NCBI GenBank assembly: GCA_008373165.1
Contig: RQOU01000055.1
Coordinates: 1-57,652 of the forward strand
Length of the DNA stretch: 57,652 nucleotides
Direction: 5' to 3'
Source of the DNA: SAR202 cluster bacterium
GTDB taxonomy: Bacteria; Chloroflexota; Dehalococcoidia; Lucifugimonadales; Lucifugimonadaceae
The translations under genes were made by a program, and so were the position numbers. The notes beneath the pieces are model-generated. The model did not search any database and was not told where the DNA came from. It saw nothing but the letters and a program-made list of their open reading frames with translations. Shown here one piece after another: positions 314 through 43,359 of the stretch (its first letter is position 1; each line of letters opens with the position of its first letter).

Positions 314-1678
314 ATGGCGACGATCACCGGGAATCGAATTTCGCTTAGTCCACGAGAAATGCCGTCTCGTTGGTATAACGTTGAGGCGGATTTACCATTT
401 AAAGTCCCGCCCATGATGTCACCTTCGGGTTATCCGGTGACTCGCAGGGATCTCGAGCCGCTATTTCCTCGACAGGTAATTGAACACGAGCTCAATTCCG
501 AGAGTCGCACATTTAACATTCCTAAGGAAGTTAGGCAGGCATATTTACATTGGCGTCCAACGCCAATGTTTCGAGCGCATGCATTGGAAAAGGAACTAGG
601 AACTCCCGCTAAATTATTCTATAAAGTCGAAGGTGGAAGTCCGAGTGGTTCTTACGAGTCAAACACTGCTATACCTCAAGCTTTTTATACGAAAAAAGTT
701 GGTGCTAAGGGTATTGTCTCTGGAGGAGCGGGGGGAGTTTGGATCAGCGCAATGGGACATGCTGCCTCGTTGTTTGGCTTGACGAGTCGTATTTACAGCG
801 TGCGCAAGGTAAATTCTGAAGATGCTTGGGGAGATGCCTACGGTCGGGTGTGGGGAGTGGATGTTCAGCCAAGTCCATCTGAAAACACACGATTTGGCAA
901 ACTCGAGTTTAAGAAAAAAGGATCTGATTCAGGTTCGATAGCTACAGCACTTGCTGAAGCTTATGAAGAAGCCACCCTGAACCCCGACGTAAAATTCGCG
1001 ATCCCTACTCTTATGGGTAGCACACTCATTCACCAGACGGTGGTGGGTCTCGAGGCTCAACGTCAGCTTGCCGCAATAGATAAAACACCCGATTATGTAA
1101 TTGGCTCTATCGGCGCAGGTTCCCATTTTGGGGGTCTTATCGCTCCATTCGTCCCAACTCGCTTACAAGGCAGAGATACGCGATTTGTTGCAGTCGAAGA
1201 AGTGTCGACGCCAAGCCTTACGCGTGGTGTTTACGCTGAAGAATCGGCAGACGCCGCTGGTCTCATGCCCCAAGTGCCCATGTATACATTGGGCCGTGAG
1301 TATTCGCCACCGGGAGTGCTGGCCGGCGCCATGCGGTATCACGGAGTGGCGCCGATTGTTTCGGCACTATACAAAGAACAGCACATAAATGCTGTAGCTC
1401 ACGGGCAAATAGAATCATATAGCGCGGGACTAATGTTCACGCGTTCAGAGGGAATTGTCCTGTCACCCCATGCGATGTACACAGTCAAGGAAGTAATAGA
1501 GCAAGCTCTTCGTTCGAAACTTTCTGGCCGTGAAGAAACGATCTTATTCACTGTGACGCCATCGGTAACTTCCGAGTCGACTCCATATGATTTATTACTC
1601 GACGGTGTGCTTAATGACGAACGACCGGAAGAGGCTTCGTTGAAGAAATCGCTGGCAAGATTCATCGGCCGAAACTAA
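314..1678 (+). CDS. TrpB2-like fold-type II protein lacking the PLP lysine
   Basis: The protein is 454 aa from this ATG. The track start at 275 adds 13 residues, but GGCGAGG lies correctly for the ATG at 314. The body aligns without gaps to the TrpB2 branch of tryptophan synthase beta: GSPSGSYESNTA corresponds to the family's NPTGSHKINTA, GGAGGVWISA to TGAGQWGSA, and the HQTVVGLEAQ and GSIGAGSHFGG segments also match. The PLP Schiff-base lysine is a glutamate (residue 115), the preceding His is Tyr, and the catalytic Glu before the TGAGQ loop is Gly. The fold is probably kept but normal tryptophan synthase chemistry is unlikely. It may be a pseudoenzyme, a binding protein or a cofactor-independent enzyme. 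No trpA or other trp gene is nearby. The E1 genes downstream lie in the same direction. The family call is firm and the function is unknown. Confidence 0.8.
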   Translation: MATITGNRISLSPREMPSRWYNVEADLPFKVPPMMSPSGYPVTRRDLEPLFPRQVIEHELNSESRTFNIPKEVRQAYLHWRPTPMFRAHALEKELGTPAKLFYKVEGGSPSGSYESNTAIPQAFYTKKVGAKGIVSGGAGGVWISAMGHAASLFGLTSRIYSVRKVNSEDAWGDAYGRVWGVDVQPSPSENTRFGKLEFKKKGSDSGSIATALAEAYEEATLNPDVKFAIPTLMGSTLIHQTVVGLEAQRQLAAIDKTPDYVIGSIGAGSHFGGLIAPFVPTRLQGRDTRFVAVEEVSTPSLTRGVYAEESADAAGLMPQVPMYTLGREYSPPGVLAGAMRYHGVAPIVSALYKEQHINAVAHGQIESYSAGLMFTRSEGIVLSPHAMYTVKEVIEQALRSKLSGREETILFTVTPSVTSESTPYDLLLDGVLNDERPEEASLKKSLARFIGRN

Positions 1679-1847: not shown

Positions 1848-2846
1848 ATGGAAATCTCTAAAGAGAAACTGGAGTGGATGTATACCACCATGTACAGAAT
1901 CCGTCGCTTCGAGGAGACGATGCTGGAGCAAACTTTCAAGGGGAACTCCATGGGTGTGACTCACCCTTCAGACGGCCAGGAAGCACCACCAACCGGAGTT
2001 TGTGCTCATCTCACGGATAAAGACTGGATTGGCTCGACTCATCGAGGTCATGGTCACTGTATAGCCAAGGGTTTAGATACTCACGCTATGATGGCAGAGA
2101 TTATGGGTAGGGCTACAGGGCAATGTGGAGGTAAGGGCGGTTCCATGCACATTGCAGATTTTTCAAAGGGCATGCTCGGTGCTAACGCGATAGTGGGAGC
2201 TTCTATTCCCCTTGCCGTTGGAGCCGCGCTGACTGCGAAGTACAAAGGCATAGAAAATGAGTCGGTTGGTGTCTCGTTCTTCGGTGATGGTGCTTCTTCA
2301 CAGGGAGTTCTGCACGAATCGATGAATCTTGCATCGGTATGGAAATTGCCAGTTATATTTGCATGTGAAAACAATGGATATGCAGAAGCGACTCCCGCTT
2401 GGTACTCAGTGTCTGCGGAGGATATAGCATCGCGGGCGGATGGTTACGGGATGCCTGGAGTTGTCGTAGACGGGATGGACGTTTTCGAAGTTTATGAAGC
2501 TGCGGGTGAAGCGATTGCGCGTGCCAGAGCCGGGGAAGGTCCCACGTTCCTGGAATTAAAGACATATCGCTATCATGGACACTTTCATGCTGATGATCCT
2601 AAGAAATATCGTAAGCCGGATGAAGAAGAGCATTATCACGAACGTGATGCCCTAAAAAACTTTGAAAAAAGAGTTACTGGTCAAAAATTGATGTCAGCAA
2701 AGAAATTAAAATCTATTCGTGATTCCATTGAGCAGGAGATGCTTGATGCCGTCGAGTTTGCCTTGGAGAGTCCTATGCCTGACGTGGAGGCGCTTTACAG
2801 TGATGTCTATGTAAATTACTCCAACCCTATTTTTGGTCTTAGATAA
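1848..2846 (+). CDS. Thiamine-diphosphate-dependent 2-oxoacid dehydrogenase E1 alpha subunit
   Basis: The 332-aa protein is a pyruvate/acetoin dehydrogenase-type E1 alpha subunit. Together with the beta subunit it would decarboxylate a 2-oxoacid (or acetoin) on ThDP and pass the acyl group to a lipoyl E2. It shows the RGHGH segment near residues 65-70, the ThDP/Mg motif GDGASSQG starting at about residue 146, followed by ENNGYAEAT, and the C-terminal YRYHGHFHADDP loop where PDH alphas have a phosphorylation/substrate loop. GGAGG precedes the ATG at good spacing. Fifty bases downstream lies the beta gene. No E2 or E3 gene is in the window, so the partner complex and the substrate cannot be told from sequence. 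Confidence 0.88.
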   Translation: MEISKEKLEWMYTTMYRIRRFEETMLEQTFKGNSMGVTHPSDGQEAPPTGVCAHLTDKDWIGSTHRGHGHCIAKGLDTHAMMAEIMGRATGQCGGKGGSMHIADFSKGMLGANAIVGASIPLAVGAALTAKYKGIENESVGVSFFGDGASSQGVLHESMNLASVWKLPVIFACENNGYAEATPAWYSVSAEDIASRADGYGMPGVVVDGMDVFEVYEAAGEAIARARAGEGPTFLELKTYRYHGHFHADDPKKYRKPDEEEHYHERDALKNFEKRVTGQKLMSAKKLKSIRDSIEQEMLDAVEFALESPMPDVEALYSDVYVNYSNPIFGLR

Positions 2847-2897: not shown

Positions 2898-3968
2898 ATG
2901 ACCACACACAATAAAATCGATCCTCTAGGCCCTGGTTATGAAGGAGTAGCTGGTAAAGAGCTGCGGTTTAGAGATGTATTCAGAGATACTTTGCGTGCCG
3001 AGATGAATCGCGATCAGGACGTCTTTTTGATGGGAGAAGATATATCAGGAGGATTTGATCGTGACACGAAAGAACCGTTGGACGCCTGGGGAGGTCCTTT
3101 TGCTGCGACGAAAGGATTGGTACAGGAATTTGGACCAGAACGCATCAGGGATGCTCCGATTTCTGAGGCAGGGTTTGTTGGTGCAGCAGTAGGCGCTGCT
3201 TTGACAGGGTTACGACCGGTTGTTGACCTTATGTATTTTGATTTCGTGACCGTTGCTTATGACCAGTTACTGTCGAATGCAGCCAAGAGTCGTTACATGT
3301 TTGGTGGCCAAACACGGGTGCCGATGACGCTATTTGCAAGATCAGGCGCTGGAACCGGTCACGCTGCTCAGCACTCGGAAAGTTTTTACTCGATGCTTGC
3401 ACACATACCTGGTCTGAAAGTCGTCGTTCCATCAGATCCCTACTCAGTGAAAGGGCTTTTGGCTGCAGCCATTCGTGATGATGATCCTGTATTTCTTGTA
3501 AACGATAAGAAACTTATTAATCTCACGGGATTTGTACCAGATGAAGATTATGTTATAGAGCTAGGGAAAGGACGTTACATGCAGCGTGGTGATGACGTTA
3601 CCTTGGTAGGGATGTCATATACGTCTGTAGTTTGTGAACAAGCTGCTGTGCAGTTGGCTGATGCGGGAATTAATGCTGAGGTGATTGACATGATGTCGCT
3701 TTCTCCATTTGACGAAGATATCCTGCTCGAGTCGGTTCAAAAAACAAATAACGTGGTGATTGTCGATGAAGATACCCCGCGAGCTTCCATGGCCTCAGAA
3801 TTCGCGGCTGTCATTGCTGACAAAGCATTCGATCACCTGGATGCGCCGGTTAAACGTGTGACTGGACCACACTCTCCAGTTCCTTACAACAAGGGACTGG
3901 AAAACGCCTTTATGCCGCAGCCTGAAGATGTAGTAGGTACCGTTCGAAATATGTTGGGACGCGACTAA
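2898..3968 (+). CDS. Thiamine-diphosphate-dependent 2-oxoacid dehydrogenase E1 beta subunit
   Basis: This 356-aa protein is the transketolase-type beta partner of the preceding E1 alpha. Typical segments are FLMGEDI near the N-terminus, RIRDAPISEAGFVGAAVGAA, the DLMYFDF and TGHAAQHSES loops, and a C-terminal transketolase domain with EVIDMMSLSPFDED. The length is normal, with a short extra N-terminus (about 20 residues). It follows the alpha gene by 51 bases and should be co-transcribed with it. Its 3' end overlaps the convergent aldolase gene by four bases, so there is no room for an intergenic terminator. Acetoin, pyruvate and branched-chain 2-oxoacids remain possible substrates. Confidence 0.88.
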   Translation: MTTHNKIDPLGPGYEGVAGKELRFRDVFRDTLRAEMNRDQDVFLMGEDISGGFDRDTKEPLDAWGGPFAATKGLVQEFGPERIRDAPISEAGFVGAAVGAALTGLRPVVDLMYFDFVTVAYDQLLSNAAKSRYMFGGQTRVPMTLFARSGAGTGHAAQHSESFYSMLAHIPGLKVVVPSDPYSVKGLLAAAIRDDDPVFLVNDKKLINLTGFVPDEDYVIELGKGRYMQRGDDVTLVGMSYTSVVCEQAAVQLADAGINAEVIDMMSLSPFDEDILLESVQKTNNVVIVDEDTPRASMASEFAAVIADKAFDHLDAPVKRVTGPHSPVPYNKGLENAFMPQPEDVVGTVRNMLGRD

Positions 3969-7727: not shown

Positions 7728-8510
7728 TTGATACAAGGAGTTGCGAGAATTGACTTCAATGCAGATATTGGCGAGTCATTCGCAGGGTATGAGCTTGGTC
7801 TTGACGAAGAAATTGTCAAGTACATTACCTCTGCGAACATAGCTACTGGATTTCATGCAGGAGATCCTGATTGGATGGCTCGGACTGTTGCGCTTGCTGT
7901 CGATCATCAAGTTGGAATCGGTGCTCACCCGGCTTATCCAGATCTTGCAGGGTTCGGCCGAAGAAATATGGACCTGACTCCAGTTGAAGTTCGTAATGCA
8001 GTGACTTACCAAGTTGGTGCTCTGTCTGCATTCGCTCCAGGGCGAAAAATGCAACATGTGAAACCGCATGGAGCCCTGTATAACACGGCAGTTAAAGACC
8101 CTGAAGTTGCGTCTTCAGTAGTGTCTGCGATCAAGGAGTTCGATCCTGAATTAATTCATGTGGTTCTTGCTGGATCTCGGTGGGAATCCATTGCTCGAGA
8201 CGAGGGAGTCCGAGTCGCCAGGGAATGCTACGCTGACCGGGCTGTGACGGCACAAGGGACCCTTGTGCCTCGGTCCGAGCCCGGAGCCGTCGTCCACGAA
8301 ACGGACCAGATTGTAGAGCGTTCGATAAAGCTCGCAACCCAAGGGAAGGTTATAGCTGTTGACGGCACTGAGATCGATTTTTCTGCTGATTCAATATGTT
8401 TGCATGGGGACACTCCTGGTGCCGTAGAAACAGCTGCTGCGGTTCGCGGAGCACTTGAAGATGCGGGGGTTAAAATCACTCCTATGGCCAAGCTGGTTTC
8501 CGGTGTCTAG
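7728..8510 (+). CDS. pxpA: PxpA (LamB/YcsF) 5-oxoprolinase subunit A homologue
   Basis: The 260-aa protein is a LamB/YcsF family member. With PxpB and PxpC, PxpA forms the bacterial ATP-dependent 5-oxoprolinase, which opens pyroglutamate to glutamate. Conserved blocks are DFNADIGESF, ANIATGFHAGDPDWM, GAHPAYPDLAGFGRR, HVKPHGALYN and the C-terminal CLHGDTPGAVE. The start is TTG, supported by GGGATAGGAG seven bases upstream. It overlaps the pxpB start by eight bases, so translation is probably coupled. The neighbours downstream are Na+-pumping decarboxylase subunits. The substrate may therefore not be 5-oxoproline. Confidence 0.9.
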   Translation: MIQGVARIDFNADIGESFAGYELGLDEEIVKYITSANIATGFHAGDPDWMARTVALAVDHQVGIGAHPAYPDLAGFGRRNMDLTPVEVRNAVTYQVGALSAFAPGRKMQHVKPHGALYNTAVKDPEVASSVVSAIKEFDPELIHVVLAGSRWESIARDEGVRVARECYADRAVTAQGTLVPRSEPGAVVHETDQIVERSIKLATQGKVIAVDGTEIDFSADSICLHGDTPGAVETAAAVRGALEDAGVKITPMAKLVSGV

Positions 8511-9204
8511 GAAACTCAAGAGTGAACCTGAAGGTCAACGATTTCCTCGCGTGGTACCTGCTGGGGATTCTGCGATACTGATCGAACTGGGATCAGAAAT
8601 TGCCCCTGAAATTAGTGCCATGGTTTTTGCACTGACAGATCTTATTAAGGACGCTGGTTTGAATTCCGGTTTGGAGGTACTTCCTACTTATCGGTCCGTG
8701 CTTGTTTATTATGACCCGCTTGTTTGTAGCTACTCGGAAATGTTCGATGCTGTGAATGGCGCGGTTGAACGCTTGGTAGAACCTGTTAACGTGAACAGTT
8801 CGTTGAAAATTATTGAGATACCGGTTGTATATGGAGGCGATGATGGTCCGGATCTTGATTTCGTAGCGGATCACGCCGGGATCACTGAGGAGACCGTTAT
8901 CGAGCTTCATTCCGGGACTGACTATCGGGTGTATATGCTCGGATTCTCTCCAGGGTTTCCATATCTTGGAGGCCTGGATGAGCGAATTGCTGCACCGAGG
9001 CTCAAGACCCCTCGTGTTTTAGTTCCTGCTGGATCTGTAGGGATTGCAGAGTCACAAACAGGTGTGTACCCGAACGCGGGACCAGGTGGTTGGAGAATAA
9101 TAGGCAGAACTTCGGTTCCTCTTTTCGATGTAAATAGTTCCACTCCGTCTTTAATAACTCCTGCTACGAAGGTTCGATTTATACCGGTGGATCAGCATGA
9201 CTAA
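8503..9204 (+). CDS. pxpB: PxpB (KipI/AHS1) 5-oxoprolinase subunit B homologue
   Basis: AHS1/KipI domain protein with VVPAGDSAILIELG at the start of the domain, VYMLGFSPGFPYLGGLD, RVLVPAGSVGIAESQTGVYP and GGWRIIGRT, all family hallmarks. The track starts at a TTG (8455) deep inside pxpA. The GTG at 8503 gives a normal family length (233 aa) and an eight-base overlap with the pxpA stop. KipI-type domains form a heteromer with KipA-type PxpC. The related pair is also found in the carboxyltransferase region of urea carboxylase, which matters for the neighbouring biotin genes. Confidence 0.9.
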   Translation: MSRKLKSEPEGQRFPRVVPAGDSAILIELGSEIAPEISAMVFALTDLIKDAGLNSGLEVLPTYRSVLVYYDPLVCSYSEMFDAVNGAVERLVEPVNVNSSLKIIEIPVVYGGDDGPDLDFVADHAGITEETVIELHSGTDYRVYMLGFSPGFPYLGGLDERIAAPRLKTPRVLVPAGSVGIAESQTGVYPNAGPGGWRIIGRTSVPLFDVNSSTPSLITPATKVRFIPVDQHD

Positions 9205-10288
9205 AACCTCTGATCCCAGTATCCAAGTGGTGCGATGTGGGTTCATGGCCTTGGTGCAAGATCAAGGCAGGTTCGGATTTCAGGAACTCGGAGTTTCAGT
9301 GAGTGGGGCAGCTGACAAGGAAGCTCTGGATGTTGGAAATATTCTTGTAGGTAACTCTCCGGAATCAGCGGCTATAGAGGTCATGCTCGGAGATTTCGAA
9401 ATTGAGTTCATGGAAAGTATGATGTTTGCTTTGACCGGGGCAGAAACTGAAGCAAGCCTTGATGATGTTCCGGTGGGTCGTAACCTTTCGTATAAAGCAC
9501 ATGCGGGATCTCGTCTTTCACTATCAAATGTTCGGCAAGGATTACGGGCTTATATTTCGGTGCAGGGTGGAATCGACACCCCGATAATTCTTGGTTCTCG
9601 TTCAACTCATATAACTTCTGGTATTGGCGGTTTCGAGGGTAGGGCATTGCAGCCTGGTGATGTGTTAAAGGTTGGGGGATCAGAACTTGGCCATGAATAT
9701 TCAAGTAGATGTTGGGATGGGTACGAATCACCTACGGATGAACTTAGTATTCGGGTTGTACTAGGCCCACAAGATGATGAATTTTCCGAGTCTGGAATCG
9801 AAACATTTCTTAGTTCCACCTACGTGGTCAGTGATCAATCGAATCGGCAGGGGTTACGGTTAGAAGGGTCCGCAATTGAATCACGAAATGGTAGATTCGA
9901 TATCGTATCTGATGCAGTGGTTAACGGGTCGATACAAGTTCCAGGAGATGGTAAGCCGATCATACTGCTATCTGACCGCCAAACGACAGGCGGTTATCTT
10001 AAAATAGCTACTGTTGCTTCGGTTGATATTCCTCGCCTAGGGCAGGTTTCTCCCGGTAATCGGATTACCTTTTCAGTAGTTTCAGTTGAGGAATCTCAAC
10101 AGCTTTTTATCGAGAGCCAAGATAGACTTTCAAGTTCGATAAACGATTTAGTTGGGGATCAGTTTTTTCTGCGAGTTAGTGATACTGATATTTCAGTCGG
10201 CACGGCTGTGAGTGGATCCGCCGAGATAGTCATTTTAGATGGCATTGCATATCCGATTATTGTTGATGAATTTATCCCCGATGAATAA
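9197..10288 (+). CDS. pxpC: PxpC (KipA/AHS2) 5-oxoprolinase subunit C homologue
   Basis: A 363-aa AHS2/KipA domain protein. GRFGFQELGVSVSGAAD, LTGAETEASLD, AYISVQGGIDTPIILGSRST and the late LSDRQTTGGYLKIATV are characteristic. It overlaps pxpB by eight bases. PxpB and PxpC together form the catalytic heteromer of 5-oxoprolinase, and homologous domains transfer carboxyl groups in urea carboxylase. The stop lies 147 bases before the first canonical start of the Na+-pump gamma gene, in a gap with two hairpins. The family is firm and the exact reaction is open. Confidence 0.9.
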   Translation: MTKTSDPSIQVVRCGFMALVQDQGRFGFQELGVSVSGAADKEALDVGNILVGNSPESAAIEVMLGDFEIEFMESMMFALTGAETEASLDDVPVGRNLSYKAHAGSRLSLSNVRQGLRAYISVQGGIDTPIILGSRSTHITSGIGGFEGRALQPGDVLKVGGSELGHEYSSRCWDGYESPTDELSIRVVLGPQDDEFSESGIETFLSSTYVVSDQSNRQGLRLEGSAIESRNGRFDIVSDAVVNGSIQVPGDGKPIILLSDRQTTGGYLKIATVASVDIPRLGQVSPGNRITFSVVSVEESQQLFIESQDRLSSSINDLVGDQFFLRVSDTDISVGTAVSGSAEIVILDGIAYPIIVDEFIPDE

Positions 10289-31167: not shown

Positions 31168-32517
31168 TCACCGGTTGGCTATATCTTCGGCCACGCAATC
31201 AGCGGCCAGATTGCCGCTGCGGACGGCAGATTCCATTGTTGAAGGCCAGCCTGTATCGGTCCAATCACCTGCTAGATAAAAACCGGGCACTGGAGTCTTT
31301 TGGGGCAATCGTGATGCTAGTGAGCCTACTGACACTCGGAATGTAGCTTCTAGCATTTTTACAACCGTGAAACGCGTAATGATGGCAGTTCTAGCCTGCG
31401 GGAATGTACGGGCCATTTCAGCGGTGAAAATTTCTTTTAACTCCTCTTTGGATCGATCTTGCCATTCCCATGCTCCGCTTAACGAGATGACTATGTGTTG
31501 GGCACCACTGTCATCTCTGGATTTCAAGAGAGTATCGTTGAATACCCATTGAAGAGGGCTGTCGAGTATTGCCATATATTTTTCGCTTAATACTGGTCGG
31601 TCGTACCAGATATGGATGGCAACTATCGGCGCTGTTTGGACGGACTCTGCCGGTTTGAAAAAATCATGTTGAATATCAGCGGAGTGTTCTAGCAAAGAGG
31701 TCATGTCGGAAGCTGGCATTGCAGATATGACTGCATTGCCTTTAACTAATTCACCATCTTGGTTCCTAACGCCTGTTACCTGACCCGATTCCATATGAAG
31801 ACTTGTTGCGCTGAAACCAGTTTTGATTGCTCCTCCTGCTGTTTCGATAAGATTTTGAGCCCTTTCTCCTACAAGGGAAGAAAGTCCTATCAACGGGAAG
31901 CCGATCGCCGCGTTTTTGATTGGCCCCAAAAACGCTACTTTGAACAGTGAAATGCCCGTATAAGCACTGACGCAATTAATATTGTCGTTGAGTGATGGGA
32001 GAATAATTAGGTTCCAGAAGTTTTTGATTGTATCTTCATTTTGATGATGCACTTTTAACCAATCATAGAAAGTAACCTGGTCATATCGAATATCTAAGTT
32101 AGTTCGTTTAATGCTGAGTAAACCCCAGAGAATTCGGATCTTGTCAGTTATCCCGATATGCCTGTAGCCAATCAACATTGATAAATTTGAAAGTGCCGAC
32201 GGTAGTTTGCGCCCTCGTAGCCAACTAATTTGATCTTGTTTAACTACCGGGAAGCGCACTCGATCATCTAACGTCACCTGGTCATCTACACCTATATCAG
32301 CGATGTACTTTTGGAACTGTTTACAGGCACCTACGAACACGTGTTGGCCGTTATCGATCTCGATGCCAGTTTCCCGGTCTATAAATGAATAAGCCCGCCC
32401 GCCCAGAAAAGGTCGTTTTTCCAAAACGATCGGCTTTAAACCACGTTGAATAAGTCGTACAGCCGAGGCCAGTCCGGCTATACCTCCACCAAGCACGATC
32501 ACAGTTCTTGTTGGCAT
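31168..32517 (-). CDS. hpnE: Squalene-associated FAD-dependent desaturase
   Basis: A 449-aa flavoprotein amine-oxidase-fold enzyme. The dinucleotide motif VIVLGGGIAGLASAVRLIQRG starts the protein, then LEKRPFLGGRAYSF and NGQHVFVGA. The C-terminal FAD block is YLAGDWTDTGWPSTMESAVRSG, which is nearly diagnostic for HpnE. In the HpnC-HpnD-HpnE route it reduces hydroxysqualene to squalene. It follows hpnD by three bases. Confidence 0.93.
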   Translation of the reverse strand: MPTRTVIVLGGGIAGLASAVRLIQRGLKPIVLEKRPFLGGRAYSFIDRETGIEIDNGQHVFVGACKQFQKYIADIGVDDQVTLDDRVRFPVVKQDQISWLRGRKLPSALSNLSMLIGYRHIGITDKIRILWGLLSIKRTNLDIRYDQVTFYDWLKVHHQNEDTIKNFWNLIILPSLNDNINCVSAYTGISLFKVAFLGPIKNAAIGFPLIGLSSLVGERAQNLIETAGGAIKTGFSATSLHMESGQVTGVRNQDGELVKGNAVISAMPASDMTSLLEHSADIQHDFFKPAESVQTAPIVAIHIWYDRPVLSEKYMAILDSPLQWVFNDTLLKSRDDSGAQHIVISLSGAWEWQDRSKEELKEIFTAEMARTFPQARTAIITRFTVVKMLEATFRVSVGSLASRLPQKTPVPGFYLAGDWTDTGWPSTMESAVRSGNLAADCVAEDIANR

Positions 32518-32520
32518 TTC

Positions 32521-33405
32521 TTAAACGAACCTGATGCCGCGGCTGCGCAGCCACACCCCTGAAATAAGTAATAGTTTTTGGAATCTCGACAGCCCGGTTC
32601 GGTGATTAAGAACGTCGTATTTGTTTTTCTCTATTTTGCTAAGCAGGTGCTCGTATACATTTGTCATTATTTCGGGACATGATCGAGACTGTTTATCTAA
32701 TAGCGGAAATAAACGCATGCCTGATTGGAGATATTGACGCGCTCGCTCGACTTGGAATTTCATGAACCTGGTGAATTCGGGAGTTACTTTTTTACTGCGA
32801 ATGTCTTCGATGGAAACGCCGTATTCTGCAAGTTCATTAGCTGGTAGGTAGACACGTCCGATTTCAAGATCTTCGGTAATGTCTCGAAGAATATTCGTTA
32901 GTTGTAACGCTATTCCAAGGTCTACGGCATAATCCACAGCGCGTTTGTCGTCGTACCCAAACACTTCGATGAGGGCTAAGCCAGTGGCGCTTGCAACTCT
33001 TTTACAATATTTTTTTAGATCATCGAATGTTTCGTAGGTTGCGCCGTCCAGATCCATTTGGCACCCATCCACCACATCAAGAAGGTGTTGTACGTTGATC
33101 GGATACTTATTCAGTGTGTGCCCAAGGGCAAGCCACATGTCTCCAACACCTCTTCCAGCATATGCCTCGGCCAATTTTGTCTTTAGCGAATTCAATGCTT
33201 CGCCAGCTTGGTCACCAAGTTCACCGTTGTCAACGATGTCGTCCGCCATCCTGCAGAACGAATATCCAGCGTAAACGGCTTTTCTTTTATCTGGAGGTAG
33301 CGTCACAAACGCGTAATAAAAATTAGATGAAGCGGCTTTGGTCGATTCCGCTACGACTTTGTATGCTCTCGAGATCTGTTCAGGGGTCGCGGTAATTGTT
33401 GGCAT
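32521..33405 (-). CDS. hpnD: Presqualene diphosphate synthase
   Basis: A 294-aa trans-prenyltransferase of the squalene/phytoene synthase family. The two Asp-rich motifs are present: CRMADDIVD and ALQLTNILRDITEDLEIGRVYLP. The position between hpnC and hpnE identifies it as HpnD, which joins two farnesyl diphosphates into presqualene diphosphate. Only five bases separate it from hpnC. Confidence 0.93.
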   Translation of the reverse strand: MPTITATPEQISRAYKVVAESTKAASSNFYYAFVTLPPDKRKAVYAGYSFCRMADDIVDNGELGDQAGEALNSLKTKLAEAYAGRGVGDMWLALGHTLNKYPINVQHLLDVVDGCQMDLDGATYETFDDLKKYCKRVASATGLALIEVFGYDDKRAVDYAVDLGIALQLTNILRDITEDLEIGRVYLPANELAEYGVSIEDIRSKKVTPEFTRFMKFQVERARQYLQSGMRLFPLLDKQSRSCPEIMTNVYEHLLSKIEKNKYDVLNHRTGLSRFQKLLLISGVWLRSRGIRFV

Positions 33406-33410
33406 GTTAG

Positions 33411-34388
33411 TTAAGTATGCCTTGCAACAGACTTGAAGGCACTCTCTGGTACTAGGCTAATTCCAAGTTTAGAGCGAATCCAAGTCGAAGCTAGAATTTT
33501 CGCTTTTTCGTAACCCGATACTGTTGGGCGCGAACTTAGTACGTCGAAACCTTTACGTTCAATCTGTTGCAGGATTGATAGGCCGCCGCGTGTAAAAAGA
33601 GCGAAATCGGAACGGGTCGATGGATCAAGAAATTGAATTAAGCTGTACCCATCTACAAAAAATTGGCGCGTTCTATCTACCTCAAATCTCATCAATGCTC
33701 TGAAGCTGTCATCTATTTTTCCTATAGCTAACTTGTGCTCAGATATACCGAATCGTTGCATATCTTCGATTGGAATATATATGCGGCCAATTTTTAGGTC
33801 CCTAGTAACGTCTTGCCAGAAATTTGCAAGCTGCAGGGCCGTGCATGTGAGATCCGCCAGTCTTTGGAGTTTTTTATCCTTGATACCACATAAATAAAGT
33901 ATCAGGTGCCCGACAGGGTTTGCCGAGTATGTACAGTATTCGAGTAGGTCGTCGAACGTTTCAGTACGTGTTGTTTTTTGGTCCCGGCGATTAGCTTCTA
34001 TTAACATTTTGAACGGTACGGCAGGAATGTTGAATAACCGTATTGTTTGGGCTAGGGCTATGAAATAAGGGTGTGTGGGTCCTTTGGAATTGTCAGAATT
34101 TAGATAACAGGCATCTAGTTGTTCTTCCCATAGATCTAGTAGCGCTAGTCTGTCACCTTCCGCCATATCGCCTAGGTCGTCTACGCACCGGGAGAACGCG
34201 TAAATAGAGTAGAAGTGGGGGCGGAGCTTTTTTGGGATCATTTTCGATCCGACAGTGAAATTCTCGTAGTGGGACTTGGCCAGTTGTTTACACGCGCTGA
34301 ATGTTGCCTCTAAATAGCCGGGGTCACTGGGTCCGATTTCGATAGTGGGAGTCGGAAGCTCACTAACTGATTTGGCTGACCGGTTCAT
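33411..34388 (-). CDS. hpnC: Hydroxysqualene synthase (squalene synthase HpnC)
   Basis: A 325-aa paralogue of HpnD. Asp-rich motifs are SRCVDDLGD and LQLANFWQDVTRDLKIGRIYIP, and the N-terminal KSHYENFTVGSKMIPKKLRPHFYSIYAF is HpnC-like in parts. It converts presqualene diphosphate to hydroxysqualene. It begins 41 bases after yjbQ, so yjbQ-hpnC-hpnD-hpnE may share a transcript. No squalene-hopene cyclase is in the window. Confidence 0.92.
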   Translation of the reverse strand: MNRSAKSVSELPTPTIEIGPSDPGYLEATFSACKQLAKSHYENFTVGSKMIPKKLRPHFYSIYAFSRCVDDLGDMAEGDRLALLDLWEEQLDACYLNSDNSKGPTHPYFIALAQTIRLFNIPAVPFKMLIEANRRDQKTTRTETFDDLLEYCTYSANPVGHLILYLCGIKDKKLQRLADLTCTALQLANFWQDVTRDLKIGRIYIPIEDMQRFGISEHKLAIGKIDDSFRALMRFEVDRTRQFFVDGYSLIQFLDPSTRSDFALFTRGGLSILQQIERKGFDVLSSRPTVSGYEKAKILASTWIRSKLGISLVPESAFKSVARHT

Positions 34389-41488: not shown

Positions 41489-42151
41489 ATGACTGAACCT
41501 CGTAAAACTGAAATAAAAAACCTCCAAGATGAAGCACCCTTAGATTCCGCAGCCGTGGATTCTGAAAATGGATTATCGAGTCTTCAAATTTGGCTTTCTA
41601 ATCGTGGGGACTTGTTTTTCCGGCTTGGTCTTATTTCTTTTGTGATCGCGTTCGTAATTTTTGGAACTGTGCTCTGGATTACAGGCAATTTGAACGCGGA
41701 AAATGTCGGCTACAGTGGACTTTGGATTATAAGTTTCATAGCTGCAGGTTCGATAGTACTTCCTTTACCTGGGCCCGTGGCCGTTTGCTTAGCTGCGACA
41801 CCTGAGTTGGGGCTTAATCCTTTGGTGATAGGCCTTGTATCAGCCTCAGCGGAAGCCCTTGGCGAAATGACAGGATATATAGCAGGAATTTCGGGACGCT
41901 CACTTTTAGAGCGTAATAAATATTACCCAAGAGTGCAGTCATTGATCTTGCGGCGGGGCGGATTCTTTTTGTTGGTAGGAGCGATTATTCCGAATCCGTT
42001 TTTTGATGTAATTGGAATTGCTGCCGGGGGGGTCGGATACCCCATTAGGAAGTTTCTCGCGATTGTGTTTGTCGCAAAAGCGATAAAATCTGTAGCTATT
42101 GCATACGCCTGCTTGTGGGGTATCGATTCGATTCAAGGATGGCTTACATGA
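41489..42151 (+). CDS. VTT/DedA-family (SNARE-associated) membrane protein
   Basis: A 220-aa membrane protein with a polar N-terminus (about 35 residues), a first transmembrane helix and a VTT/SNARE-associated core containing SIVLPLPGPVAVCLAATPELGLNPL, EALGEMTGYIAGISGRS and a late FFLLVGAIIPNPFFDVIGIAAG segment in parts. VTT/DedA proteins are linked to lipid scrambling and membrane homeostasis. Its stop overlaps the ispDF ATG (ATGA), so translation is coupled. That puts a possible lipid-transport function next to isoprenoid precursor synthesis. Confidence 0.82.
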   Translation: MTEPRKTEIKNLQDEAPLDSAAVDSENGLSSLQIWLSNRGDLFFRLGLISFVIAFVIFGTVLWITGNLNAENVGYSGLWIISFIAAGSIVLPLPGPVAVCLAATPELGLNPLVIGLVSASAEALGEMTGYIAGISGRSLLERNKYYPRVQSLILRRGGFFLLVGAIIPNPFFDVIGIAAGGVGYPIRKFLAIVFVAKAIKSVAIAYACLWGIDSIQGWLT

Positions 42152-43359
42152 GCAATGCCGTGAATTGTTTGGGCGTTATTATTGTGGCAGCTGGACGAAG
42201 CTCACGGATGGGTGGAGTCGACAAGCAACTACTGCAGTTGGGTGGCATCCCAGTAATTTTGCATTCTCTCAGAGTTTTCGAGTCATTTTCCAACACAAGT
42301 TCTATAGTGCTCGTAATGTCGGAGCATAATCTCGATGCAGGGATAAGCGTTGTAGATCAGAGTGGATTATCTAAGATTGTTGATGTTGTAGTTGGAGGAG
42401 AGCGCAGACAAGATTCGGTGAAGATCGGATTAGATGCTCTTGCATCTCACGCAAAAGAGATTCCCGAATTTATCGCAGTGCATGATGGCGCGAGACCATT
42501 TGTAAATCACGAGCTTATAGAGCGCGGTATGTCGACTGCCCGGGCGATTGGAGCCGGAGTCGCTGCAGTCAAGGTTAAGGACACTATTAAAGTTGCACCT
42601 CATAAGATAATTACCGACACTCTGGATAGATCTGAGCTTTGGGCGATTCAAACGCCCCAAATATTCAGATATGACGTGCTTAAGACGGCGCATCACGTAG
42701 TCAGAGATGATGTGACAGATGATGCAACCATGGTGGAATATTCGGGTGGGATAGTTGCTACCTTTAGTGGTTCTGATGAAAACATCAAGATCACCACACC
42801 TGAAGACTTACATTTGGCGAATCTAATCCTCCATCAGCGCTTAGGACAGTCAAATCTCTCAGGGTCGGGACCTAAAGGATCTGTATTTGGAATCGGTTTT
42901 GACGGGCATCGTCTAATAGCTGGGGGACCATTGCGCCTTGGAGGTGTCGACATCGAATTTGACTATCACCTCGATGGTCATTCTGATGGAGACGTTCTGC
43001 TTCACTCTATCGCCAGTGCCATTCTTGGAGCTGCCAATCTCGGTGACCTTGGAGGTCAATTTCCCTCTTCAGATGAGCGATACATCAATTTCGACTCTGC
43101 AAAATTTATTGCAGAGTCTGCTCGCAAGGCACTTTCAGATGGCTGGATGGTAGGCCATGTTGATGCTACGATCATTGCCCAGAGACCTAAACTCGCTGCC
43201 GAGGCGTTAAAAATGGCTGCGAGGATAGGTGAGATAGACGGTTTAGAAAATTCCACCATCAACATAAAAATCACTTCCACCGATTCGGTAGGTTCGATAG
43301 GTGATGGCGAGGGCATTGCTGCTCAAGCCATCGCAACCCTGATTCCCATAAAAGAATGA
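42148..43359 (+). CDS. ispDF: Bifunctional IspD-IspF (MEP pathway)
   Basis: A 403-aa fusion of two non-consecutive MEP pathway enzymes. The N-terminal half is IspD (VIIVAAGRSSRMGG, AVHDGARPFV, ITTPEDLHLA), which makes CDP-methylerythritol. From about residue 243 is IspF (GIGFDGHRL, HLDGHSDGDVLLHSI, GDLGGQFPSSDE, GDGEGIAAQA), which forms the cyclodiphosphate, with the metal ligands Asp and His conserved. The track starts earlier at a GTG. The ATG at 42148 overlaps the VTT stop and has AAGGATGG upstream. The stop overlaps the cysS ATG by four bases. Confidence 0.94.
   Translation: MSNAVNCLGVIIVAAGRSSRMGGVDKQLLQLGGIPVILHSLRVFESFSNTSSIVLVMSEHNLDAGISVVDQSGLSKIVDVVVGGERRQDSVKIGLDALASHAKEIPEFIAVHDGARPFVNHELIERGMSTARAIGAGVAAVKVKDTIKVAPHKIITDTLDRSELWAIQTPQIFRYDVLKTAHHVVRDDVTDDATMVEYSGGIVATFSGSDENIKITTPEDLHLANLILHQRLGQSNLSGSGPKGSVFGIGFDGHRLIAGGPLRLGGVDIEFDYHLDGHSDGDVLLHSIASAILGAANLGDLGGQFPSSDERYINFDSAKFIAESARKALSDGWMVGHVDATIIAQRPKLAAEALKMAARIGEIDGLENSTINIKITSTDSVGSIGDGEGIAAQAIATLIPIKE

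Follow-up and report, generated by a model that had tools for sequence, protein, structure and literature searches.

A gene at 314-1678 of the window, a 57,652-nucleotide contig of a SAR202 cluster bacterium, encodes a member of the TrpB2 sequence family in which the lysine that forms the Schiff base with pyridoxal phosphate (PLP) is replaced by glutamate. Proteins with this replacement (Glu-forms) compose a clade that derived once from TrpB2, within Dehalococcoidia, and that is set apart from its lysine-bearing relatives (Lys-forms) by a small set of pocket residues. We consider it probable, at roughly 0.6, that this clade gave up PLP-aldimine catalysis and that its pocket is now a phosphate-anchored ligand site, either in a regulator or in a PLP-free enzyme. 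Taken by itself, the loss of PLP-aldimine catalysis in the Glu-forms is highly likely from the residues present, and automated annotation of these proteins as PLP-dependent TrpB-like enzymes is very probably wrong.

A TrpB2 family protein without the Schiff-base lysine

The open reading frame (Table 1) runs for 454 codons with no stop inside. A GTG at position 275 is a possible alternative upstream start, but the orthologues have a common start at M(A/P)T, which makes 314 the right start codon. The product scores 442.5 bits against the NCBIfam TrpB-like model NF009057 (cut-off 366) and 387.8 against TIGR01415, under the cut-off of 518.85 for that model. It has a Pfam PALP match, and its closest relatives of solved structure, by sequence, are Sulfolobus TrpB2 chains. 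The source genome amounts to 1.94 Mb, with an estimated completeness of 85%. An AlphaFold2 model built with 28 input sequences (pLDDT 89, pTM 0.91) has TrpB2 6hul as its best Foldseek match in the PDB (6hul_B, Sulfolobus; TM 0.86/0.94), and TrpB2 structures 4qys and 6hte are also matched. On this model, the protein is predicted to retain the TrpB2 fold.

Residues were numbered from an alignment to E. coli TrpB. The Schiff-base lysine of PLP-dependent fold type II enzymes is absent from the window protein, which has Glu115 in its place; the catalytic glutamate of tryptophan synthase is likewise absent, with Gly137 at the position of E109. An earlier note, made from the sequence alone, had described a TrpB2-like protein with its PLP lysine changed to glutamate, a His-to-Tyr change ahead of that site and a glycine in place of the catalytic glutamate. 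The NF009057 score and the E. coli alignment bear out the first description, and the alignment places Tyr114 (residue 114) at the H86 position and confirms the glycine. An Ile-to-Ser change claimed in the same motif depends on the reference: it holds against Sulfolobus TrpB2 (GSHKINTA) and fails against the usual Chloroflexota motif, GSHKPNTA. The altered residues reach beyond those that had been seen before (Table 1).

The window protein thus resembles the PLP-dependent TrpB2 and TrpB-like enzymes (NF009057; 6hul, 4qys, 6hte) in its full-length homology, predicted fold, RYHG block, N-terminal TrpB2 part and most of the phosphate loop, where the glycines and serine are mostly kept and the asparagine is lost. 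It differs from them at the aldimine lysine, the catalytic glutamate, Gln114, His86 and the Ser377 position, which is threonine, and in three residues fixed among Glu-forms (T232, M340 and Y389). In TrpB1 and TrpB2, the active-site His, Lys and Ser (H81, K82, S371) are reported to be strictly conserved (Merkl 2007; PMC1854888).

Table 1. Positions in the window of the Glu-form gene, its diagnostic residues and the adjoining genes (Ec, E. coli TrpB).
Feature	Position	Strand	Remarks
TrpB2-derived gene, Glu replacing PLP Schiff-base Lys	314..1678	+	454 aa
Motif GSYESNTA, residues 112-119	647..670	+	versus GSHK(P/I)NTA; DNA pattern match 629-669
Glu115 codon	656-658	+	replaces aldimine Lys (Ec K87)
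GGAGGVW, residues 137-143	722..742	+	versus ETGAGQW; Ec E109 to Gly137, Gln114 to Val142
Thr232 codon	1007..1009	+	Thr in 22/22 Glu-forms, Ser in 51/51 Lys-forms; Ec T190 position
Phosphate-binding loop GAGSH	1112..1126	+	GGGSN in Lys-forms; largely kept; from alignment
Met340 codon	1331..1333	+	Met in 22/22 Glu-forms, Leu in 51/51 Lys-forms
Tyr389 codon	1478..1480	+	Tyr in 22/22 Glu-forms, His in 51/51 Lys-forms
Thr415 codon, pyridine-N contact position	1556..1558	+	Ec S377; Ser/Cys in TrpB2; from alignment
E1 alpha, 2-oxoacid (pyruvate-type) dehydrogenase	1848..2846	+	next gene downstream of the Glu-form
E1 beta of the same 2-oxoacid dehydrogenase	2898..3968	+	

The Glu-forms are a conserved clade

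The Glu-form is found in 16 of the 19 genomes of the window's SAR202 genus, its own included, and, within the same family, in six of the seven genomes of a sister SAR202 genus. Candidatus Lucifugimonas marina, which has been brought into cultivation (PMC10444878), is among the carriers, its genome being a single contig (CP046147). Identity among the Glu-forms of both genera ranges from 93 down to about 61%, with the window protein at 61-63% to those of the sister genus, and every displayed copy carries the motif SYESNTA. The clade is under strong purifying selection: dN/dS is 0.04 between the window gene and its nearest relative, and its median is 0.024 among copies of the window's genus and 0.065 among those of the sister genus; many pairs, saturated at silent sites, were left out. 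None of the 17 copies checked has an internal stop. The earlier note had taken the intact 454-codon frame to mean that the gene is no decaying pseudogene, and the intact reading frame and strong selection agree with it.

A family-profile search of the order and class returned further relatives, most of them outscoring ordinary TrpB2. Ten of these, from nine Dehalococcoidia genera (L053, L062-L068, L023 and L024), have glutamate at the lysine position, in contexts that include GSYEFNTA, GSYEANTA, GSHEMNTA, GGHEANTA and TYEANTA. In a maximum-likelihood tree of 74 proteins, calculated with 14 diagnostic columns removed, one branch splits 22 Glu-forms from 51 Lys-forms (support 100/99) and is recovered in all 200 of 200 bootstrap trees. 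The K-to-E form is therefore a conserved clade by the very check, a family alignment and tree, that had been proposed for it. Rooting on E. coli TrpB nests the Glu clade among Lys-forms; with so remote an outgroup, this root is approximate. A long branch (0.91) leads to the window's own clade, which is sister to L053/L064. A profile search across the phylum returned mostly Lys-forms. A DNA pattern that demands exact S/T, H/Y and NTA, and would miss L023/L024 and L065, detected no Glu-form in a sample of 300 further Chloroflexota genomes, drawn mainly from other classes. Of eight plasmid TrpB2 matches taken, all with a readable motif keep the lysine.

A pocket signature and what it may mean

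The aldimine position is glutamate in 22 of 22 Glu-forms and lysine in 51 of 51 Lys-forms, and residues 232, 340 and 389 divide the two groups in the same way. Outside TrpB2 proteins, from Thermomicrobium, Nostoc, Nonomuraea, Prescottella, Treponema and Bacteroides plasmids and with four phyla other than Chloroflexota among their sources, have Lys, Ser, Leu and His at these diagnostic positions. The residue equivalent to Glu109 (position 137) is lost in all 22 Glu-forms, in favor of Gly or Ala. Gln114 (residue 142) is also lost in all 22, being Val or Leu inside the window clade and Glu outside it. Most Glu-forms lack the phosphate-loop residue Asn236, with His there in the window clade and mostly Ala or Gly elsewhere, and the positions of Ser377 (the pyridine-N contact), Glu350 and Asn236 are not conserved within the Glu clade. 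The Gly-x-Gly-Ser core of the loop, G(A/G)GS, stays; given the replacement of Asn236, phosphate binding by Glu-forms is not assured. A TrpB-like protein with a different combination is encoded on a plasmid of Streptomyces sp. NBC_00704 (L172), where the PLP lysine is kept (GSHKLNTA) and the catalytic glutamate is lost (SGTGAGQWG); its gene adjoins one for a phosphopantetheine-binding protein.

With the aldimine lysine, the catalytic glutamate, Gln114 and the pyridine-N contact all lost, the earlier suggestion of a changed function is well supported. The replacement of lysine by glutamate, together with the loss of the catalytic glutamate and the exchange of residues around the cofactor ring, would mark the abandonment of PLP-aldimine catalysis on a scaffold that kept its fold and most of its phosphate loop. 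The pocket may now hold a phosphate-bearing small molecule in place of the PLP internal aldimine, with the G(A/G)GS loop as its anchor and Glu115 in contact with it. Such a protein could be, as our first choice, a ligand-binding regulatory pseudoenzyme or, as our second, an enzyme with carboxylate-based, PLP-independent chemistry. There is a functional precedent for the first. The plant TSB-like pseudoenzyme is a noncatalytic TrpB descendant whose catalytic glutamate gave way to a small residue, as in the Glu-forms, and shows that a TrpB can survive as a regulator; the window protein shares with it a replaced catalytic glutamate and a fold that is kept, as far as prediction goes. The plant protein differs in that it originated from plant TSB and acts with TSA, whereas no trp gene was seen next to the Glu-forms, and its key changes are Glu to Ala and Asp to Glu, not the lysine (PMC12727527). 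Our search of the open-access literature found no paper describing fold type II proteins that lack the lysine, a natural TrpB clade without it or such TrpB variants in Dehalococcoidia. Because Lys and Glu sister forms often share one genome and differ at few diagnostic residues, what a PLP fold can do without PLP is a directly testable question.

Alternative explanations

An enzyme that does not need PLP could use Glu115 as a general base or metal ligand in the elimination, isomerisation or hydration of a phosphorylated metabolite. One carboxylate is strictly conserved at the catalytic position, accompanied by the invariant polar residues T232 and Y389, and both this and the strong purifying selection speak for such an enzyme. 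Members outside the window clade even carry another carboxylate in place of Gln114. However, the window clade has Val or Leu at that site, which leaves no diacid site common to all Glu-forms, nor do the Glu-forms share a conserved pathway partner. We regard this specific reading as unlikely, though a serious candidate.

Schiff-base lysines have been lost naturally in another family of B6 enzymes, where a new mechanism arose. The sugar 3-dehydratases ColD and E1, of fold type I, have histidine in place of the PLP lysine and still use pyridoxamine phosphate (PMP). By analogy, the Glu-forms could bind PMP or an external aldimine noncovalently and continue B6 chemistry; the largely kept phosphate loop would suit this, and a carboxylate could face the amine. 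The dehydratases have an unrelated fold and use His rather than Glu. Continued B6 chemistry is quite unlikely, as the Glu-forms have lost the catalytic glutamate and do not conserve the residues at Ser377, Glu350 and Asn236.

It is more doubtful still that the protein serves TrpA, or a different TrpB, as an allosteric partner. The plant TSB-like protein, with the equivalent Glu-to-Ala change, activates TSA (PMC12727527), and TrpA is present in the genome. But the genome also has its own TrpB1, no trp gene was seen among the genes annotated around any Glu-form, and Glu-forms persist in genomes with no intact Lys-form TrpB2. Within the genus, an intact Lys-form accompanies the Glu-form in seven of 16 genomes, some of the absences possibly being assembly gaps. 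As the Lys-form copy is often missing or broken where the Glu-form persists, the latter seemingly does not depend on it, and we rejected an obligate partnership between the two. In the single-contig Lucifugimonas marina genome, the Lys-form (L154; G041:C1:63203-64508) is split over two reading frames, and the Lys-form copy of genome G056 has one in-frame TAA. These copies suggest that ordinary TrpB2 is being lost while the Glu-form stays intact.

It is very improbable that another lysine makes the aldimine in an otherwise ordinary PLP enzyme. The most likely substitute, K104, is present in 22 of 22 Glu-forms, but it is also present, alongside the aldimine lysine, in 51 of 51 Lys-forms, and the other residues of PLP chemistry are lost. 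K227, the only other lysine conserved across the Glu-forms, occurs in 39 of the 51 Lys-forms. No lysine specific to the 22 Glu-forms was found against the 51 Lys-forms; thus no replacement lysine arose. Finally, chance, sequencing error and a decaying pseudogene, including the earlier note's proviso that the change might be an error unique to this assembly, are excluded, as the same motif recurs across 16 and six genomes of two genera (22 carrier genomes, CP046147 among them) with dN/dS far below 1.

Genomic surroundings

In both SAR202 genera, the Glu-form lies upstream of the E1alpha and E1beta genes of a pyruvate-type dehydrogenase, either directly or with one ORF in between. The divergent operon on the other side resembles, by eye from sequence, alternative complex III (ActA/ActB-like). 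E1alpha is present in 69 of 76 family genomes, mostly without an adjoining Glu-form, and six of eight genomes examined (L164, L167-L171) have the block of E1 and divergent ActA/ActB-like genes without it. An older block has therefore either gained or lost the Glu-form, and one such event makes the E1 adjacency weak evidence of function. We rejected E1alpha/E1beta as a functional partner on the ground that the E1 block is widespread with no Glu-form beside it. The E2 genes are located elsewhere in the SAR202 genomes.

Other Glu-form lineages have different neighbours. An MscS channel gene falls within the examined stretch at six of their 10 loci and at none of 20 Lys-form loci (Fisher about 3.5e-4, ignoring relatedness and unequal stretch length). 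OtsA is found in three Glu-form loci, but five loci of the window's genus have it next to a Lys-form TrpB2, and the MscS/trehalose neighbourhood is absent from the window clade. Since several relatives stand among osmotic-stress genes (MscS, OtsA/OtsB), we would guess at a sugar phosphate such as trehalose-6-phosphate as one candidate ligand. More broadly, and only tentatively, the clade may record one ancient event in which a fold type II PLP scaffold became an enzyme or sensor that is free of PLP and has glutamate at the aldimine site, for central-carbon or osmotic control in Dehalococcoidia, including the abundant marine SAR202.

Several of these loci have features of their own. MscS, OtsA/OtsB, TrkA-C and CorA genes cluster near the Glu-forms of L117, L118, L119, L120, L123 and L125, and in L117 and L120 the MscS gene is directly upstream on the same strand. 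A single ORF at L117:12342-14900 has an MscS-like part followed by an OtsA (trehalose-6-phosphate synthase) part, a possible channel-synthase fusion. Directly after the Glu-form of L118 is a gene for a divergent KamA/lysine-2,3-aminomutase-like radical SAM protein with no Pfam match (L118:7480-8820, minus strand).

Elsewhere in the window, three further arrangements were recognized by eye. LamB/YcsF-type and then KipI/KipA-like genes at 7728-10288 resemble the 5-oxoprolinase cluster pxpABC. At 31168-34388 (minus strand), two phytoene/squalene-synthase-like genes and one amine-oxidase-like gene in a row resemble hpnCDE, the genes of squalene biosynthesis. An ORF at 42115-43359 resembles an IspD-IspF fusion and adjoins a CysS-like gene.
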